Source: Allostella sp. ATCC 35155 (GTDB lineage: Bacteria; Pseudomonadota; Alphaproteobacteria; ATCC43930; Allostellaceae). From it: a DNA stretch of 64,000 nt. The stretch covers positions 5,095,974 to 5,159,973 of the forward strand of contig AP019701.1 of the NCBI GenBank assembly GCA_006738865.1. Direction: 5' to 3'. Within the stretch, counting starts at the first letter, position 1, and every line of letters begins with the position of its first letter. A model generated the notes under the pieces. It saw only the letters and a list, made by a program, of their open reading frames with translations, did no database searches and was not told the origin of the DNA. Shown here piece by piece: positions 28,498-36,749 of this stretch. A program made the translations under genes and the position numbers.

Positions 28498-29328
28498 ATG
28501 GGCGATGCTGCGATCAAGGTCACCTTCTGGGGCGTGCGCGGCTCGATCGCATGCGCGGGGCCCGAGACGGCGGCCTATGGCGGCAACACGGCTTGCGTCG
28601 AAGTCCGGTGCGGGCCCCACCGCCTGATCCTGGACGCCGGCACGGGCATCCGGCCGCTCGGCCGGGTCATTGCCGCCGAACCGCCCGCGCCGGTCGACAT
28701 CCTGTTCAGCCACACCCATCTCGACCACGTCCTGGGCCTGCCCTTCTTTGCGCCGGCGCTGATACCGGGGCGCTCGGTCGGCCTCTGGGCGGGCCATCTC
28801 CTGCCGCAGATGACGCTGGAACAGGCGATCCGCCGGCTCATGGCGCCGCCGCTGTTCCCGGTTCCCGTCGACATCCTGGCGGCCGATCTCGCATTTCACG
28901 ACTTCCGCGCGGGCGAGGTTCTGCGACCGCGGCCGGGCATCGTCGTTCGCACGGCGCCGCTGCCCCATCCTGACGGGGCGACGGGGTACCGGATCGAGCA
29001 TGCCGGCCGCGCCGTTGCCTACGTCACCGACCTCGAGCACCGGCCGGGTACCCTCGACCGAGAGGTGCTCGACCTCGTCCGCGGCGCCGACCTGATGATC
29101 TACGATTCCACCTATGACGACGCGGAGTTCGCCGAGCGCGTCGGCTGGGGCCATTCCACCTGGCAGGAGGCGTTGCGCATCGCCGATGCTGGTGACGTCG
29201 CCCGGGTTGTGCTGTTCCACCATGACCCTGCTCGCGACGACGCGGCGCTGGACCGGATCGCCGCGGCGGTGAATCTGCTTCGGCCGGAGACACTGGTGGC
29301 GCGCGAAGGCCAGTCCGTCACCTGCTAG
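28498..29328 (+). CDS. MBL-fold metallo-hydrolase
   Basis: A 276-residue metallo-beta-lactamase-fold protein. It opens KVTFWGVRGSIACAGPETAAYGGNTACVEV, the hallmark of a group of RNase Z-like hydrolases. The metal motif is SHTHLDHVLGLPFF (HxHxDH), with later ligands in VTDLEH and LFHHDPARDD. The function is likely a phosphodiesterase- or lactonase-like hydrolysis, not defined. The ATG at 28498 fits the conserved N-terminus. Its end overlaps the convergent AlgX-like gene by 11 nt. Confidence 0.88.
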   Translation: MGDAAIKVTFWGVRGSIACAGPETAAYGGNTACVEVRCGPHRLILDAGTGIRPLGRVIAAEPPAPVDILFSHTHLDHVLGLPFFAPALIPGRSVGLWAGHLLPQMTLEQAIRRLMAPPLFPVPVDILAADLAFHDFRAGEVLRPRPGIVVRTAPLPHPDGATGYRIEHAGRAVAYVTDLEHRPGTLDREVLDLVRGADLMIYDSTYDDAEFAERVGWGHSTWQEALRIADAGDVARVVLFHHDPARDDAALDRIAAAVNLLRPETLVAREGQSVTC

Positions 29329-30817
29329 GGCCCGAGCCGCCCTCCCGGATATCGGCCAGCAGCGCGTGGATCGCCGCATGGTCTGGCTGAAGCAGGTAGC
29401 AGTCCACGGCCTGGGCCATCGCTGCTTCCCGGTCGCCGATGGCGAGCCAGGCGCGCGCCAGCCAGTAGCACAGGTCCTCGCTGTCGGAGACAGTCTCTCG
29501 GCAGCGGCTCATCTCGGCCACGGCTTCCTCCGGTCGCCCGGCCGCCAGCAGGTTGAAGCCGAGGTGACTGACGAAGAGCGCGTTGTCCGGAGCCATAGCT
29601 GCCGCGCGCCGCGACGCGGCAAGCGAAGCGGCCGCGTTGCCGTTGTGGCGCTGGATCACATTGCTGAGATGCCAGAAGGCCGGGCGGCGGTCATTCCGGC
29701 GAACGGCCTCGCCGACGACCTGTTCTGCTTCGCCGAACAGGCCCGCCTCGTACAGGGTCTGAGCCAGCCAGAAATGCAGGATCGCCGCGTCGGGACTCTC
29801 TGCGACGGCCTGCCGGGCGGCGGCGAGGGCCGCTTGCCGGTTTCCGTCCAGCCGCAGCGCGACAATCTCCAGGCCCGTTCGGCCGACCGAGTCACCGGTA
29901 TCGAACGCCAGCGTCTCGAGTGCTCCGAAGGGCTGATGGTCTCTCGGCGGGAAGGGAAGCCGGCGTTCGGCGACCTCCCAGATCACGACGTCCGGCCGGC
30001 ACGCGTCGATCGCCTCGAACGGCAGCGCATGACCTGTGCTGATCCAATCGATCGTCGCGAACGTCGCATTGACGAAGGGTGCAAGTTCGGTCCCGAAGGA
30101 ATCCCGGGCGATCATTGCCCGGCCCCAGCCGGATTCGCACCGGTAGGCGACCCAGGCCTCTCTCGCGGCGCCGCGATGATCGTGCAGCAGAACGGGCGCC
30201 ACTCGGCCAATGCCGGAGATCTCCGGCACGGGCATCTCAATGATCATCTCCGGCTCGACCAGCGCTCCCATATCGCCGTAGGAACGACGAAACCGATAGG
30301 AGACTTCGCTGCTCTCCACGACCCGGCCCTGCCGATCGGGCGGCAGGGCCGTGATCAGTTCGCGATAGGCCACGAACGCGCCATAGGCCGACCAGTGGGT
30401 ATCGTTGGCCTTGTAGACGTCGATGCCGCCCCGAGCCTCGATCAGCATCCGGGTCGGGTCGATAAACGCGCAGTCTGCAATATCCCGGAACCGCTCGACG
30501 AACCGTTCCGCGAGCGAGTGTTCCGGCAGCCGCACGCTTGGGGGCAGTTCGTCCGGATAGACGAAATGGGCATCCGGTCCGAACAGGACGTACAGGCTCA
30601 GCCCGCGATTGCGAAGCCGGCGGGCCCGCGTCTCCAGCGTTCGCCGCCAGCGATGCTCCAGGGCGGAGGGAAAGGGCTCGGCCGCTGTAAGCGTCGCCAG
30701 CGACGCACCTTCATAGTCCTCGTAGAACAGACGCCCGCTGCGGCCGCGGATGATCGACTTGGCCCGGCCGCGCAGAGCCAGTGCATCGAGGTCTCGTATC
30801 GGGGCTTCGATCGTCAC
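29318..30817 (-). CDS. AlgX/AlgJ-like SGNH acyltransferase domain with C-terminal TPR repeats
   Basis: A 499-residue two-part protein. Residues 15-290 look like the SGNH domain of AlgX/AlgJ, which O-acetylate alginate: GRSGRLFY, then the Asp-His pair NDTHWSAYGAF (Asp139, His141) and the serine motif RDSFGTELAPF (Ser240). Residues about 317-495 are tetratricopeptide-like helical pairs. I see no signal peptide or membrane segment, unlike AlgX/AlgJ, so it is predicted cytoplasmic. It follows an ACP gene with an ATGA overlap, suggesting that it takes an acyl group from that ACP. The acceptor is unknown. Confidence 0.75.
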   Translation of the reverse strand: MTIEAPIRDLDALALRGRAKSIIRGRSGRLFYEDYEGASLATLTAAEPFPSALEHRWRRTLETRARRLRNRGLSLYVLFGPDAHFVYPDELPPSVRLPEHSLAERFVERFRDIADCAFIDPTRMLIEARGGIDVYKANDTHWSAYGAFVAYRELITALPPDRQGRVVESSEVSYRFRRSYGDMGALVEPEMIIEMPVPEISGIGRVAPVLLHDHRGAAREAWVAYRCESGWGRAMIARDSFGTELAPFVNATFATIDWISTGHALPFEAIDACRPDVVIWEVAERRLPFPPRDHQPFGALETLAFDTGDSVGRTGLEIVALRLDGNRQAALAAARQAVAESPDAAILHFWLAQTLYEAGLFGEAEQVVGEAVRRNDRRPAFWHLSNVIQRHNGNAAASLAASRRAAAMAPDNALFVSHLGFNLLAAGRPEEAVAEMSRCRETVSDSEDLCYWLARAWLAIGDREAAMAQAVDCYLLQPDHAAIHALLADIREGGSGPSR

Positions 30818-31071
30818 GGCGGCGGTCGCCGCGATCCCATGATGTCTGCCATGAGATCGATCAGCGCTCCGACATCACGGGCCATCGTCGCGACCCGTTC
30901 CGGAACCCGGACACCGAGCCGCTTCTCCAGCCGGATCATCAGCATCGTGTGCGCTAGCGAATCCCATCCGTCGATGTCTTCCGCCACCGTGTTGCGGGCG
31001 ATCTCGCTTGCCGAGACGCCGAACGTCTCGGCTATGACGTCGATGACGACCCCGGAGATGTCCGGATTCAC
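30814..31071 (-). CDS. Acyl carrier protein
   Basis: An 85-residue acidic helical protein with the phosphopantetheine site GWDSLAHTMLMIRLEK (Ser38 in DSL). It is distinct from the housekeeping AcpP and belongs to the stand-alone carriers of dedicated pathways. Both ends overlap neighbours by four bases: its ATG lies in the stop of the acyl-AMP ligase gene and its stop in the start of the AlgX-like gene. So ligase, carrier and transferase form a coupled module. Confidence 0.88.
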   Translation of the reverse strand: MNPDISGVVIDVIAETFGVSASEIARNTVAEDIDGWDSLAHTMLMIRLEKRLGVRVPERVATMARDVGALIDLMADIMGSRRPPP

Positions 31072-32765
31072 CCGCCCGCTCCATCCTGCAGGAAGCGCCG
31101 ACGGTTCTCGGCGCGGTGCATCTTGCCGCTGGTCGTCTTGACGAGATGGCCCGGCGGAACGGCGACGACCCGATGCGGCGTCGCCTGCAGCCTGCGGGTG
31201 ATCGCCGACTTCACGGACCGGATCAGGGTGCGCGAGGCCTGCCCGTCCGCGGTCTCGACGAGGACGATGAGGCGCTCGGTCCCAATCTCCTCGTCCTCGA
31301 CTCCGAAGGCGCAGATGCGGCCGGGCTTCACTCCCGCGGCTTCACCGGCCGCCGCTTCGACGTCGGGCGCATAGAGGTTGCGCCCGTTCACGATCACGAT
31401 CTCCTTGGTGCGGCCGCAGACGAACAGTTCGTCACCTTCGATGAACCCGATATCGCCGGTCCGGTACCAGCCGTCGCGGAAGGCCGTGTCCGTCGCCGCC
31501 GAATTGCGAAAGTAGCCCTGGAAGCAATGGCTGCCACGCAGCTCTATCTCGCCCACCGGCAGGCCCACGCCACGTCCGCGGCTCGCGATGCGCAACTCGA
31601 TACCTCGCAACGCCGGTCCGCAAGACGCGAACGCCCGACTTCCTGACTTGCCATTGCGAACCACGCGCGCGCGCGCATCCTGCTCGAGGGCCACTGCGTC
31701 GACGCGGAGCGTACGAGGCTGCGGACGCGGCGGCGCCAGGGCAGCGGCCAGCACCGCCTCGGCCAGACCATAGCAGGGTCGGATCTGGTCGCCGCGGACG
31801 CCAAGATGGGACAATGCGGTGACGAACCCCGCCATCGTCTCCGGTCGGCACGGTTCCGCGCTGCTGACGAAGGCGCGGACGGTGTCGAGGCGATAGGCCG
31901 CGTCCTCGGGCAAGGTCCGCACCGTGTGGCGGAAGGCGAAGTTGGGCATCCACACGAGGGTGGCCCGGAACCGCTCTATGGCATCGAGCAGGATCGCGGG
32001 ATCAGCCGTCCATTCGAAAGGATCGAGTGCGATGATCGTGGAGCCGAACGAGAGCGGCGTGAGGAAGCACCCGACCAGTCCCATGTCGTGGTAGAGCGGC
32101 AGCCATGAAGCGATCCGGTCGGTGCCGTCCAGCCCGAGCGCCGGTCCGAGGGCCGCGGCATGCGCGGCCAGCAGCGATGCATCGGGTGCGACGCCCTTGC
32201 GCCGGCCGGTGGTGCCGGAACTGTACTGGACGAAGAGCGGGCGACCGGCGGCGATCATCGCCGGATCGCCGGCCTTCTCGGGCTCGGCAGAGCGCGCAAG
32301 CGGGGCTTCCAGCACGGCGCAGGAAATGCCGCCCAGGGCCTGTCGCATCGCCTGCGCATTGTCGGCGTAGGTGACGAGCGCGGAGGGGCGGAGTTCGGCC
32401 AGGAGGTCCGCGTACTCCGGCCAGTAGAGCGACGGATCCTGCTTCGGCGTCGGGAAGGGAATGATGGTCGGCACCGCGCCCAGCCAGACCGCGCCGAGGA
32501 AGGCGAAGTAGATGTCTGCACAGTGGGTCAGCGCGATCGTGACGTGCTGATCGGCGGCCACGCCCGCGGAGCGGAGTGCCGCCGCCCACCGGCGCGTCTC
32601 TACCACCGCCTCCTTGTAGGAGTACTGCTGCCAGTACCGGCCGCGACGCAGAATCAGGAACGGCCGCCAGGGTGTGCGGGCCGCATGGTGCAGCAGCGAT
32701 CCGACGATGCCGGTTGACGGATCCACCGGCGCCTCAGGACCATCGCCGGACGAGGCGTTCGGCAT
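31068..32765 (-). CDS. AMP-binding acyl-acid ligase (fatty acyl-AMP ligase-like)
   Basis: A 565-residue adenylate-forming enzyme. The P-loop motif is FVQYSSGTTGRRKGV (about 178-192), with LPLYHDMGLVG (A4-like, as in FAALs), GWYRTGDIGFIEGDELFVCGRTKEIVIVNGRNLYAPDVE (A7-A8) and the C-terminal catalytic lysine region VKTTSGKMHRAEN. The HDMGLVG and NLYPxDVE-type motifs are those of fatty acyl-AMP ligases that load carrier proteins. The next gene is an ACP, overlapping by ATGA. It also overlaps the sulfotransferase gene by 32 nt. Substrate acid unknown. Confidence 0.85.
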   Translation of the reverse strand: MPNASSGDGPEAPVDPSTGIVGSLLHHAARTPWRPFLILRRGRYWQQYSYKEAVVETRRWAAALRSAGVAADQHVTIALTHCADIYFAFLGAVWLGAVPTIIPFPTPKQDPSLYWPEYADLLAELRPSALVTYADNAQAMRQALGGISCAVLEAPLARSAEPEKAGDPAMIAAGRPLFVQYSSGTTGRRKGVAPDASLLAAHAAALGPALGLDGTDRIASWLPLYHDMGLVGCFLTPLSFGSTIIALDPFEWTADPAILLDAIERFRATLVWMPNFAFRHTVRTLPEDAAYRLDTVRAFVSSAEPCRPETMAGFVTALSHLGVRGDQIRPCYGLAEAVLAAALAPPRPQPRTLRVDAVALEQDARARVVRNGKSGSRAFASCGPALRGIELRIASRGRGVGLPVGEIELRGSHCFQGYFRNSAATDTAFRDGWYRTGDIGFIEGDELFVCGRTKEIVIVNGRNLYAPDVEAAAGEAAGVKPGRICAFGVEDEEIGTERLIVLVETADGQASRTLIRSVKSAITRRLQATPHRVVAVPPGHLVKTTSGKMHRAENRRRFLQDGAGG

Positions 32766-33444
32766 ACCCGACGGCGCGGCGATAAAGATCGACTTCTTCG
32801 GGCATGCGATCGAACGCCTTGGCGCGCTGCGCGTCGGTCACGCGGGTCAGCATCTCGTATCGGCCGCGTTCGAGCTCGTCGGCGAAGACCCGCTCCTCTC
32901 CGCGATTGACATCCGGCAGTCGGCCGACATAGGGGTCAGCGCGTCGGAACGCGAAGGCAGCGCCGAACGCCGTCAGTCCGGGCGCGAGAAGATCCTGGGC
33001 GAACAGGAAATCGTAGCGGTCGATCTCGCGGCCAGCGAGATGGATGGCCTGAGCGCAGCGAACATTCTCATCCGACAAAACAAAGTCGACGAGGTCCATC
33101 CGCCCGCTGCGAATGGCGTCCGATCGCCATGTCTTGCGGCCGCGAACGGCATCATAGACCTCGTGACGATATTGGGAAACCGCCCGATCGACCGGATGCC
33201 GGACAGCGGCGATGTAGCGGGCGCTCGGCAGCGCCTCTGCGTACTTCTCATAGAAGAAGTGACCGTGAATGCCCCAGAACCAGCACTCGATGAAGCCGAG
33301 ATTGGCAAGGATCAGTTGCTCCGGCTTGCGCGCATTGGCGTATTCGCTGTCATAGTCCCAGAAGAGCCGCCGCCCCGATCCGAAATCGAAAACGTAGCCG
33401 AGCATCGTTCCGGCGGTTTTCGGAATATGGATCGAGACGAACAT
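32734..33444 (-). CDS. Sulfotransferase family protein
   Basis: A 236-residue protein opening MFVSIHIPKTAGTMLG, in which HIPKTAGT (6-13) is the 5'-phosphosulfate-binding loop of carbohydrate-type sulfotransferases. The 3'-phosphate-binding motif appears as AAVRHPVDRAVSQYRHE. It would transfer sulfate from PAPS to a sugar or lipid hydroxyl. It lacks a membrane anchor, so it acts in the cytoplasm. It lies 7 nt after the methyltransferase gene and overlaps the acyl ligase. Confidence 0.83.
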   Translation of the reverse strand: MFVSIHIPKTAGTMLGYVFDFGSGRRLFWDYDSEYANARKPEQLILANLGFIECWFWGIHGHFFYEKYAEALPSARYIAAVRHPVDRAVSQYRHEVYDAVRGRKTWRSDAIRSGRMDLVDFVLSDENVRCAQAIHLAGREIDRYDFLFAQDLLAPGLTAFGAAFAFRRADPYVGRLPDVNRGEERVFADELERGRYEMLTRVTDAQRAKAFDRMPEEVDLYRRAVGYAERLVRRWS

Positions 33445-33451
33445 CGGGCCG

Positions 33452-34615
33452 TCATGCCGACGGCGCGCGGCGGCGTGGCCGCCGCGGGCTGCGCAGCACC
33501 AGCAGATCCTGGTAGCCGAACATGCAGGGGTGGATGGCCTCGACGGAGAACTGCTCGCGGCATACTTCGGCCGCGACCGCGGCAGTCTGCTTGACGTTGC
33601 GGTAGTAGGCCGGGTCCGAGACGATGCCCGAGAGGTCGGAGTTCGGGGAGTCGGGCCCTCTGCCGGTCGTCTTGTACTCGTCGAGCCAGGCGCGATCGAG
33701 GAAGCGGGACGAGAAGGCGACCGCGCTGTCGCCGGTGAATGTCAGGAGTGCAAGGCCGCCGGGTTTCAGGATCCGCCGCAACTCCTCCAGCCACGTCCGC
33801 TGCACCTCAACTGCCAGATGTGTCATCACGGATATGCCGAAGATCAGGTCAAACTGGCCGGCCCGGTAGCGCGTCGGCGGCATCAATGGCCCATCGGCAA
33901 ACGTGATGTCGGCCAGATGCCGCTGCGCCCACTCCACGTTCTGGTGGTCGATGTCGATCCCGTGGAGCGGACCATTCGCTCCGAGCATCCGGAGATAGCG
34001 GGTGACGCGTCCGTGGCCGCAGCCCCAGTCGAGGACCTTCCCCGTCGCGGGATCGAAGCCATGGCCGTGGGCGATCTCGACGATCCGGTGGGCGTCGCTG
34101 TAGCCGTGGCAGACGACATTGCCGATCGTGTTGTAGGTGTGGACCCGCCGCAGCGCCGGCGAGCCTGGAAAGGTCTGCATGGCGCCGAGGTCCTTGGGCA
34201 GCAGGATCGTCGTGCGCAAGCACTCGACGGCATCGTCGCCTCGTCCACGAAAGCTGACGCGGAACCGGAACGCCGGCCCCACATGCGTCGAGTCCGCCAG
34301 GCTGATGCGGATGCGAAAGGCGCTGGCAGCCGCATTCGGCCAGTACCAGTAGACCTCGGCCGCGTGCGGATTCGGCAAGGGATAGTCAAACTCGAAGGCG
34401 ATGCCCGGCGCCGCGTCGACGCGCACAGCATCCGCATCGCCCTCGGGCGCTAGGATTAGTCCAGTCAGCACAACGGCCCCCTGATCGACTGCGAAGCCGC
34501 TGATGGCAAATAGGGGAGCCTGCTGAAGGGCGCACATCTCGCCAGCCGTCAATCCGCGATGCGTGGCTCGCAGCGGCGCGGCGATCGGGCGTGCTTGCGG
34601 TTCCATTGATCGCAT
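33452..34615 (-). CDS. Class I SAM-dependent methyltransferase with N-terminal extension
   Basis: A 387-residue protein. The C-terminal part is a Rossmann methyltransferase: VLDWGCGHGRVTRYLRML (motif I), HGIDIDHQNVEWAQRHL, LIFGISVMTHLAVEVQRTWLEELRRILKPGGLALLTF. Residues 1-150 form a beta-rich domain with aromatic residues (AEVYWYWPNAAASAFRIRISL) that I do not recognise; it could bind glycan. It is the first gene of the minus-strand cluster and diverges from the WsaF-type gene. Confidence 0.82.
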   Translation of the reverse strand: MRSMEPQARPIAAPLRATHRGLTAGEMCALQQAPLFAISGFAVDQGAVVLTGLILAPEGDADAVRVDAAPGIAFEFDYPLPNPHAAEVYWYWPNAAASAFRIRISLADSTHVGPAFRFRVSFRGRGDDAVECLRTTILLPKDLGAMQTFPGSPALRRVHTYNTIGNVVCHGYSDAHRIVEIAHGHGFDPATGKVLDWGCGHGRVTRYLRMLGANGPLHGIDIDHQNVEWAQRHLADITFADGPLMPPTRYRAGQFDLIFGISVMTHLAVEVQRTWLEELRRILKPGGLALLTFTGDSAVAFSSRFLDRAWLDEYKTTGRGPDSPNSDLSGIVSDPAYYRNVKQTAAVAAEVCREQFSVEAIHPCMFGYQDLLVLRSPRRPRRRAPSA

Positions 34616-34633
34616 GGTCCCCCTTGCGCTGGC

Positions 34634-34662
34634 TACCCAGGATAGTAATTATCGGCTGGGTA
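34634..34662. promoter_or_regulatory. Inverted repeat in the divergent promoter region of the glycan cluster
   Basis: TACCCAG (34634-34640) and CTGGGTA (34656-34662) are exact complements. Between them GATA (34641-34644) and TATC (34650-34653) add a further paired step. It is A/T-rich against a high-GC background and lies 18 nt from both start codons of the divergent genes, as expected of an operator acting on both. Confidence 0.5.
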
Positions 34663-34679
34663 ATGTCTAGGTCATCGTA

Positions 34680-36749
34680 ATGGACGATCGGCCGGCAACA
34701 GACCGGCTTGGCGCTGGGCGTCATTCCGACGGCGCGCAGACGTTGGCCTCGCGGCGCGAACTGTTTCGCAGCGCCTTTCAGCGCGACCTGTTCGTCCGTC
34801 GTGTCCTGCACTTCTATCCGGACGAGCCCGTCACGGAGGCAAATGCCGTCCAGATGTACGGGACGAAGCCCGCGCTCCGACGGATCAGCCCCAACCTCCT
34901 TCTGGACGAGACGTGGTATCGCGCCGGCAACCCGGACGTGGAGGCCGCCATCGGTGACGGGCGGATCTATTCCGGATTCCACCATTTCGTGTTCTGGGGA
35001 TGGCGTCAGGGACGGCTTCCCAATCCGATCATGAGCGCCCAAGTGACGGACCGTCCTCTGCCGGCACTCGCCTCTACCAGCTTCGACCCGGAGTCATATC
35101 TTCACGGAAGTGCCGAAGCGCGGCTGTTCCTGCAGCATTTTCCGTTCGTCTCGGCGTTCGAGTTCTTCGACATCTACGGGCGTCGGATCGATCGGCTGCA
35201 CGATGTACCGCCATCGATCCAGCAACTTCTGGAGGCAGAGTTCGACGCCGACTTCTACCGGGCGACATACCTGGCGGACGAACCCGAACGGGTCGTGGCC
35301 CAGCCGTTCCTTCACTATCTCTATGTCGGCCGCCGGCAGGGCCACTCGCCCAATCGCTGGTTCGACGAGGGCTGGTATCTGGCCTTCTATGGCGATGTCC
35401 GCGCAGCGGTGCTGCGCGGCGAACTCATGAGCGGATTCCACCATTATCTGCTGGCCGGAATGCGCGAAGGCCGATCCCCGAGCTATGCACTCGATCGGGC
35501 GCTGGAGATCGCACTGCCCGGCGTGACGCGACCGGAGCTGATGAACCGAACGCGCGAGATCGAACGACGGATCGCGCCGATCCCGGTTTCCGTCGCGTCG
35601 GACGCGCCGCGTACGCTCTGGCTGGTCGTTCCACGCCTCAATCCGGACATCGCCTTCGGAGGGTATCGAGCGCTGTTCGCATTGTCAGCGGAACTGAAAC
35701 GACACGTCGCCGCCACCGGCATGCGACTGGCGATCATCACCACGGAGGAGGCGCAGTCCAACGCAGCCTACTTCGCGTGGCGAATGCGCGGCGAGGAGTG
35801 CCGCTCGCTGCTCACGGATGTGGAGGTGCGCGCACGAGCGGAAATCGGCCGCCTGGCGATCGGTCCGCGGGACCGATTTCTCGCCTATTCGACCTGGGAC
35901 GCGCTCGTCGCCCAGCCCATGGCGGCGCAGACCGACGAAACGCGAATCCTCTCGCTCGTTCAGGAGTACGAGCCGCTCTTCTGCGACCACTCAGCCCTCT
36001 ATGCGCTCAGCGCCAGTGGCCTGGAGGTGCCGTCCTATCCGATCTTCAATTCGGCGGTGCTCCGCGACTATTTCCGGATGCGGCGGCTCGGGATCTTTCG
36101 TGGTGGGAATCGCCCGGTCGAAGGTCGGGACTACGCCGTGTTCGAGCATGTGATCAACGTGCTGCCACGGCCGGACGCTGCAGAGCTTGCGGCGCGCGAG
36201 GAGCGCGTTCTTGCGTTCTATGCCAGGCCGGAACCGCATGCGTCCCGCAACCTCTATGAGATCGCGGAGCTGGCCCTGCGCCGGCTCTGCCAGACCGGCG
36301 CGTTCGACCGGCGGTGGCGCTTCTACGGTCTGGGGTGTCTGGCCGAGTTGCCGGATGTCGATCTGGGTGGCGGGCACCGCCTGGAGTTCGTCCGGAAGAT
36401 GCAGGAAAGCGACTATGTCCGGTTCATGCGCTCGCTCGACATTGGCCTCAGCCTGATGTTCGCGCCGCATCCCAGTCTGATGCCCTACGAGTTCGCGACG
36501 ACCGGCGCCCTCGTCGTCACCAACACGTTCGAGAATCGGAATCGCCGATACTTCGAACGGATCTGCCGGAACTTCGAGCCATGCCGACCCACGATCGAAG
36601 GGGTGGTGGAGAGCGTTCAGCGCGCCCTGGATCGCGTGGAGGACTTTTCCGGCCGGATCGCGGCGGCCTATAGGCCGCCGCCCCGGACGTGGGCCGAAAC
36701 GTTCGACGAAGGCTTCTTCCGGCGCACCATCGCGCCAATGATCCGTTAG
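34680..36749 (+). CDS. WsaF-type glycosyltransferase with N-terminal repeats
   Basis: A 689-residue protein. Residues about 55-280 hold three repeats of the form (F)DexWYrxxxxDVxaAv...SGFHHyxxxGxrxGRxPn, often found at the front of alphaproteobacterial polysaccharide glycosyltransferases. The C-terminal part begins LWLVVPRLNPDIAFGGYRALF and includes ILSLVQEYEPLFCDHSALYALS and SLDIGLSLMFAPHPSLMPYEFATTGALVVTNTF, the pattern of the WsaF/rhamnan-type GT4 enzymes. It probably extends a surface glycan, perhaps with rhamnose or another deoxysugar. It diverges from the methyltransferase gene and shares a putative operator. Confidence 0.8.
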   Translation: MDDRPATDRLGAGRHSDGAQTLASRRELFRSAFQRDLFVRRVLHFYPDEPVTEANAVQMYGTKPALRRISPNLLLDETWYRAGNPDVEAAIGDGRIYSGFHHFVFWGWRQGRLPNPIMSAQVTDRPLPALASTSFDPESYLHGSAEARLFLQHFPFVSAFEFFDIYGRRIDRLHDVPPSIQQLLEAEFDADFYRATYLADEPERVVAQPFLHYLYVGRRQGHSPNRWFDEGWYLAFYGDVRAAVLRGELMSGFHHYLLAGMREGRSPSYALDRALEIALPGVTRPELMNRTREIERRIAPIPVSVASDAPRTLWLVVPRLNPDIAFGGYRALFALSAELKRHVAATGMRLAIITTEEAQSNAAYFAWRMRGEECRSLLTDVEVRARAEIGRLAIGPRDRFLAYSTWDALVAQPMAAQTDETRILSLVQEYEPLFCDHSALYALSASGLEVPSYPIFNSAVLRDYFRMRRLGIFRGGNRPVEGRDYAVFEHVINVLPRPDAAELAAREERVLAFYARPEPHASRNLYEIAELALRRLCQTGAFDRRWRFYGLGCLAELPDVDLGGGHRLEFVRKMQESDYVRFMRSLDIGLSLMFAPHPSLMPYEFATTGALVVTNTFENRNRRYFERICRNFEPCRPTIEGVVESVQRALDRVEDFSGRIAAAYRPPPRTWAETFDEGFFRRTIAPMIR

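Follow-up and report, generated by a model that had tools for sequence, protein, structure and literature searches.

We analysed a 64,000-nt stretch of the Allostella sp. ATCC 35155 genome (here called the window; the genome is G000), in which a compact cassette of six genes was found. Five of these are encoded on the minus strand, and the sixth, coding for a WsaF-type glycosyltransferase (GT), diverges from them across a short spacer:

29318-30817, minus strand: AlgX/AlgJ-like SGNH acyltransferase domain with C-terminal TPRs (Pfam ALGX 48.5 bits, TPR_19 53.3)
30814-31071, minus strand: acyl carrier protein, ACP (Pfam PP-binding 25.4 bits)
31068-32765, minus strand: acyl-AMP ligase, FAAL type (Pfam AMP-binding 161.5 bits)
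32734-33444, minus strand: sulfotransferase (Pfam Sulfotransfer_2 30.3 bits, cut-off 22; HIPKTAGT and RHPVDRAVSQY motifs)
33452-34615, minus strand: class I SAM methyltransferase with a beta-rich N-terminal domain (Pfam Methyltransf_25 58.4 bits)
34616-34679, no strand: divergent spacer of 64 nt, with an inverted repeat, a 13-mer (GATAGTAATTATC) kept in congener G001, and minus-strand promoter-like sites
34680-36749, plus strand: WsaF-type GT (Pfam WsaF_C, PF22772, 121.5 bits)

Gene layout and divergent spacer

From the AlgX-like gene to the GT gene, the successive junctions are overlaps of 4, 4 and 32 nt, a 7-nt gap and the 64-nt divergent spacer, and the open reading frame coordinates thus reproduce the arrangement described in the first-pass annotation of this DNA. 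The product assignments made there (methyltransferase, sulfotransferase, acyl-AMP ligase, ACP, AlgX-like protein with TPRs, and WsaF-type enzyme) are backed by Pfam, with curated cut-offs exceeded by one domain or more in each of the six products. The outer stop codons of the cassette overlap or almost touch those of the neighbouring genes (29318/29328 and 36749/36753 in the window). These surroundings consist of ordinary chromosomal genes, named from their sequences as an MFS transporter, exonuclease III and a fumarylacetoacetate-hydrolase-like protein, among others, together with a metallo-beta-lactamase-fold protein that is supported by Pfam. No exporter or initiating transferase is present within the window cluster, no PKS, NRPS, Pap- or NodA-type gene was detected in the cassette by Pfam, and none of the six proteins matched a NodA/NodB/NodC-type core in Pfam or NCBIfam.

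The inverted repeat previously noticed in the spacer was located at 34634-34662, as TACCCAG and CTGGGTA arms (34634-34640 and 34656-34662) separated by 15 nt. G001 does not retain the right arm, and the sequence that is kept overlaps promoter-like sites, so the repeat was rejected as a conserved operator. Between the arms, the 13-mer GATRGTAATTATC (window 34641-34653, G000:C1:5130614-5130626) is kept in the G001 spacer (G001:C1:5620116-5620128), and in each of the two genomes the spacer copy is the sole exact match. Congener G002 has one exact match, located elsewhere, by an alcohol-dehydrogenase-like gene. The 13-mer overlaps minus-strand promoter-like hexamers and may be the promoter or operator of the operon, for which we consider it a candidate.

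Distribution of the cassette and of its core

Congener G001 has the identical six-gene order, orientation and flanking genes, with protein identities of 57-69%. In two other congeners, G002 and G003, the site is empty, with the two convergent flanking genes intact and directly adjacent, and neither genome encodes a full-length AlgX-TPR homolog elsewhere. Since the outer stop codons abut those of the neighbours, the six-gene block is the exact difference between filled and empty sites. In a tree of six flanking proteins G001 groups with the empty-site G003 (bootstrap 88), which suggests that the block was either lost from G003 or acquired by transfer at this same position; under either history the six genes travel as one unit. 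The first-pass annotation had held that its reading would fall if the gene set were unique to this strain, and the full set is found also in G001.

An initial genome scan with the window and G001 sequences alone gave zero matches, and two homologs from Phyllobacterium plasmids were then added to build the profile; the full AlgX-TPR query returned mainly TPR noise, and the SGNH domain alone was used instead. The profile scan over 84,980 species genomes yielded 19 loci, five of which display a tightly packed ligase-ACP-AlgX/TPR order. These belong to two classes, Alpha- and Gammaproteobacteria, and come from Dyella silvatica, D. tabacisoli, and Panacagrimonas sp., Hyphomonadaceae and Methylocystaceae MAGs (L056-L060), with the D. 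silvatica ligase gene truncated by the contig end. Including G001, the proteins are 42-58% (ligases), 47-61% (ACPs) and 28-59% (AlgX proteins) identical to those of the window.

The trio often has further partners. Homologs of the WsaF-type enzyme (38%) and of the methyltransferase (34-35%) lie beside it in the Hyphomonadaceae MAG (L057) and in D. tabacisoli (L059), the latter also having an ABC-2 permease and ATPase of polysaccharide-export type nearby. A GT2 gene occurs near the trio in L056 and L059, and a WbsX/RgpF-type GT in L057. Two of the seven FAAL-linked loci, those of Panacagrimonas (L058) and Methylocystaceae (L060), display the trio alone, with no GT, methyltransferase or exporter within the DNA examined, so in some genomes the acceptor may be something other than a glycan. 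No sulfotransferase match was obtained in L056-L060. The invariant core is thus the ligase-ACP-AlgX/TPR trio, with the WsaF-type enzyme and the methyltransferase as frequent partners.

These results uphold the proposal that the genes act as a set, through both the presence or absence of the block and its recurrence elsewhere, and also the link of this set to glycans, given the WsaF, GT2, WbsX/RgpF and ABC-2 exporter neighbours. The five minus-strand genes put forward as the set do recur together in G001, but in other genomes the trio alone is invariant, and the sulfotransferase was seen in this genus only. Recurrence had been predicted in related Rhodospirillales, but was instead found mainly in distant Alpha- and Gammaproteobacteria, with one full-length AlgX-TPR homolog among 99 relatives.

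The AlgX-like protein and its partners

The SGNH domain of the AlgX-like protein spans residues ~20-310 and the TPRs residues ~320-490. The catalytic-type triad of D139, H141 (in NDTHW) and S240 (in RDSF) is invariant in all ten aligned homologs, and these stretches align with the DHHW and DSF motifs of PatB1, and were aligned to AlgJ too. In the AlphaFold (AF2) model (pLDDT 82.5, pTM 0.83) the best PDB matches of the N-terminal half are the AlgJ acetyltransferase domain and PatB1 (4o8v, 5v8d), and the C-terminal half matches TPR superhelices, including the TPRs of O-GlcNAc transferase.

Hydropathy analysis revealed no signal peptide or TM helix in the AlgX-like protein. The maximal 19-residue Kyte-Doolittle mean is at most 1.31 in the FAAL-linked and Phyllobacterium proteins versus 1.83-2.31 in the MBOAT-linked relatives tested, and the hydrophobic N-terminal segment of the latter is absent from every FAAL-linked member and from the Phyllobacterium proteins. 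The protein is thus predicted to be cytosolic. No MBOAT gene is present in the cassette, and PF03062 has no match in the whole of G000 (a single contig, 98.9% complete), whereas the same search gives one match each in G001, G002 and G003, showing that it works. An MBOAT gene adjoins the other AlgX homologs whose surroundings were fetched (385 genomes sampled across the class); G224, G384, G401, G126, G400 and G227, as well as L071 from the genome scan, were set aside as ordinary MBOAT-linked AlgJ/X pairs. With an AlgX-like protein predicted to be cytosolic and no MBOAT partner, the textbook periplasmic AlgI-AlgJ/X scheme cannot apply, a point that the first-pass annotation did not raise.

A distant AlgX-TPR protein (25%), without signal peptide, occurs in Phyllobacterium plasmids and genomes (L053, L055 11788-13557, L061-L070). 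In two annotated Phyllobacterium plasmid loci its gene is the last of a polysaccharide cluster that includes two pyruvyl transferases, GTs, galE, DUF6212 and GH16. No FAAL is found near these homologs within the DNA examined, so an ACP is not the sole possible donor for proteins of the SGNH-TPR type.

The top PDB sequence matches of the ligase are FAALs, and from the alignment with these its residues ~350-382 presumably form the FAAL-specific insertion. The ACP has its phosphopantetheine site at Ser38 (GWDSL), which is invariant in seven homologs. The family of the ligase and the pairing of the two genes in the operon suggest that it loads the adjacent ACP, which would fit the invariant Ser38. 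The Panacagrimonas ligase ortholog (L058:8134-9735) lacks the stretch of ~19 residues presumed to be this insertion, in a locus where the ACP and the AlgX-like protein are both intact.

The sulfotransferase (PF03567) is 69% identical in G001, with unchanged HIPKTAGT and RHPVDR motifs, and an APS kinase for PAPS supply is encoded in G000. Because the enzyme was not seen beyond this genus (present in the window and G001, not found in L056-L060), sulfate is apparently an accessory decoration, local to the genus. The glycan carrying acyl, sulfate and methyl groups that had been proposed for this locus is supported in part. The 5.3 Mb genome has nine Sulfotransfer_1 (PF00685) matches. A second WsaF_C gene with a sulfotransferase, near 1.77-1.79 Mb of G000, was considered and rejected, as no glycan locus is evident there from the gene calls.

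The WsaF-type GT matches the PDB structure of WsaF (2x0e, E 1.5e-23) in an alignment that begins at residue 297. The WsaF_N family (PF21374) scores 26.8 bits in the window protein against a cut-off of 27.0, which the L057 and L059 homologs pass. The N-terminal part is composed of repeats of the type FD..WY..(N)PDV..G..FHHY...G..EGR.P.

In the methyltransferases of the window (33452-34615), L057 (13689-15086) and L059 (6548-7963), a beta-rich domain (~residues 1-160) precedes the methyltransferase domain, and no Pfam family matched it in these three cassette proteins. The sole match of a class-wide search with the methyltransferase was a fused multi-methyltransferase protein of G205, beside a TPR-GT protein, and a similar beta-rich domain arrangement is seen inside that fused protein (L054:7791-10658). 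The structure model of the methyltransferase has a pLDDT of 52, from a three-sequence alignment. Its PADLOC mad2 match was rejected as a sign of defence, since it covers only the generic SAM domain.

A possible cytosolic acyl relay and its relation to known systems

Taking these observations together, we consider it somewhat probable that the six genes form one functional cassette for building and decorating a glycan or glycolipid of the cell surface, via a soluble acyl relay from ligase to ACP to SGNH protein. In this scheme the FAAL would convert a fatty (or similar) acid to acyl-AMP and pass it to the dedicated holo-ACP. The cytosolic SGNH domain, whose triad and modelled fold match those of AlgJ and PatB1, would then accept the acyl group of the ACP at Ser240 and hand it on to a hydroxyl group on a glycan intermediate at the inner membrane side, with the TPRs possibly docking the ACP or glycosyltransferases. 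A sugar would come from the WsaF-type enzyme and a methyl group from the methyltransferase, joined in this genus alone by sulfate from the sulfotransferase; these three enzymes, assigned to their families from sequence, may share one acceptor. The finished glycan would be exported by an ABC-2 type exporter, which is in-cluster in Dyella and presumably encoded elsewhere in the genome here. We infer this direction of acyl flow, as well as the acceptor, the chain type, the TPR role and the common product.

Whether this amounts to a third route of SGNH glycan acylation, in which a cytosolic AlgX/AlgJ-type enzyme is fed by a FAAL-loaded ACP, with no MBOAT/AT3 relay, before export, is in our view evenly balanced. 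A literature search found no paper linking FAAL, ACP and AlgX-type enzymes, or on cytosolic SGNH glycan acylation, and this novelty is provisional because many subscription papers lay outside its coverage. If true, acylation of glycans would take place in the cytosol and would use fatty acids in place of acetate, so that the polysaccharides bear lipid. Scattered members of the Alpha- and Gammaproteobacteria would then have long-chain or unusual acyl groups on their surface polysaccharides, and the FAAL-ACP-AlgX/TPR order would provide a search signature for such glycans. The trio consists of three small soluble proteins, open to purification and direct assay. The label "alginate O-acetyltransferase" is unsuitable for cytosolic AlgX-TPR proteins.

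Esterase or thioesterase activity is common among SGNH/GDSL enzymes, and the triad would also fit an acyl-ACP thioesterase or editing enzyme that frees the acid, with FAAL and ACP feeding another acyltransferase; the triad alone is conserved among the AlgX-like homologs, with no evident acceptor site. We regard this as unlikely, although the best placed of the alternatives, as the AlgX-like gene is the sole acyltransferase-like member of the conserved trio, its nearest solved relatives, AlgJ and PatB1, are O-acetyltransferases, and a loader and an unloader without an acceptor enzyme would be futile in the trio-only L058 and L060.

Slightly less probable still is that the trio lipidates a protein (e.g. 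an S-layer, flagellar or pilus protein) recognised by the TPRs, with the sugars on the same protein. TPRs commonly bind proteins, those of the model resemble the TPRs of O-GlcNAc transferase, and WsaF itself builds an S-layer glycan (PMC3898925). However, an ABC-2 exporter and chain-building GTs adjoin the trio in Dyella and Hyphomonadaceae, and the cassettes show no conserved protein that could be the substrate.

Nod factors are decorated by GT, acyl, methyl and sulfate additions, a set that the cassette could supply. A secreted small molecule, either a lipid or a lipo-oligosaccharide of Nod-factor-like or sulfolipid-like type, in place of a decorated polymer would also agree with the usual service of FAAL-ACP pairs in natural-product pathways (PMC11837247), and with the co-occurrence of FAALs and sulfotransferases in mycobacterial acyltrehalose/sulfolipid biology (PMC4183827). 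We consider such a product improbable, since the cassette has no PKS, NRPS, Pap- or NodA-type gene and the polysaccharide-type exporter of Dyella suggests a polymer. That the five minus-strand genes are accidental neighbours from unrelated pathways is very improbable: compact operons can mix functions, and the sulfotransferase is outside the set elsewhere, but the six genes behave as a block among congeners and the trio order is kept across two classes, and the arrangement is not due to chance, given that another species keeps the whole set at 57-69% identity and that the core trio recurs in five additional genomes.

The preferred reading, a cytosolic acyl relay onto a glycan, shares elements with several known systems. 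AlgJ, AlgX and PatB work on the outer side of the cytoplasmic membrane, with an MBOAT protein as their supplier. The AlgI-AlgJ/AlgX and PatA-PatB systems have the same SGNH triad as the cassette protein, for which AlgJ and PatB1 are the closest solved structures. Acylation of bacterial surface polymers is attributed to two major systems, MBOAT plus SGNH or an AT3-SGNH fusion, in both of which the acyl group crosses the membrane first, and the MBOAT-SGNH enzymes, which are located in the periplasm or anchored in the membrane, use acetyl-CoA and receive the acyl group through an acyl-Tyr shuttle of the MBOAT (PMC12148441). In contrast, the cassette has no MBOAT partner, no MBOAT candidate to carry an acyl-Tyr intermediate was found, and its SGNH protein is predicted to be neither membrane-anchored nor periplasmic; given the missing partner and the location of the SGNH protein, we do not class it as a member.

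In mycobacterial sulfolipid and acyltrehalose formation a FAAL and a sulfotransferase serve one acylated sugar (PMC4183827), and the acyl chains are made by PKS and transferred by Pap enzymes. The cassette likewise combines a FAAL with a sulfotransferase, but PKS and Pap enzymes are absent from it. A FAAL review (PMC11837247) describes PKS/NRPS and mycobacterial lipid contexts, with the FAAL beside its ACP in PKS/NRPS modules as in the cassette, and its section on genomic context does not include a FAAL-ACP-AlgX arrangement; here the FAAL and ACP are instead partnered by glycan enzymes and an SGNH protein of AlgX-like type, with no PKS/NRPS. The GT domain is homologous to that of WsaF, the Geobacillus S-layer rhamnosyltransferase, and the long N-terminal repeats of the cassette enzyme lie outside the match. 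In the Dlt system (DltA-DltC-DltB/DltX-DltD, teichoic acid D-alanylation), adenylation, loading of a carrier protein and final transfer by an SGNH-type Ser enzyme depend on DltB/DltX in the membrane (PMC12148441). The cassette resembles it in the order of adenylation, dedicated carrier and SGNH enzyme, but has a FAAL in place of DltA, neither an MBOAT DltB nor DltX, and an apparently cytosolic SGNH protein that bears TPRs.
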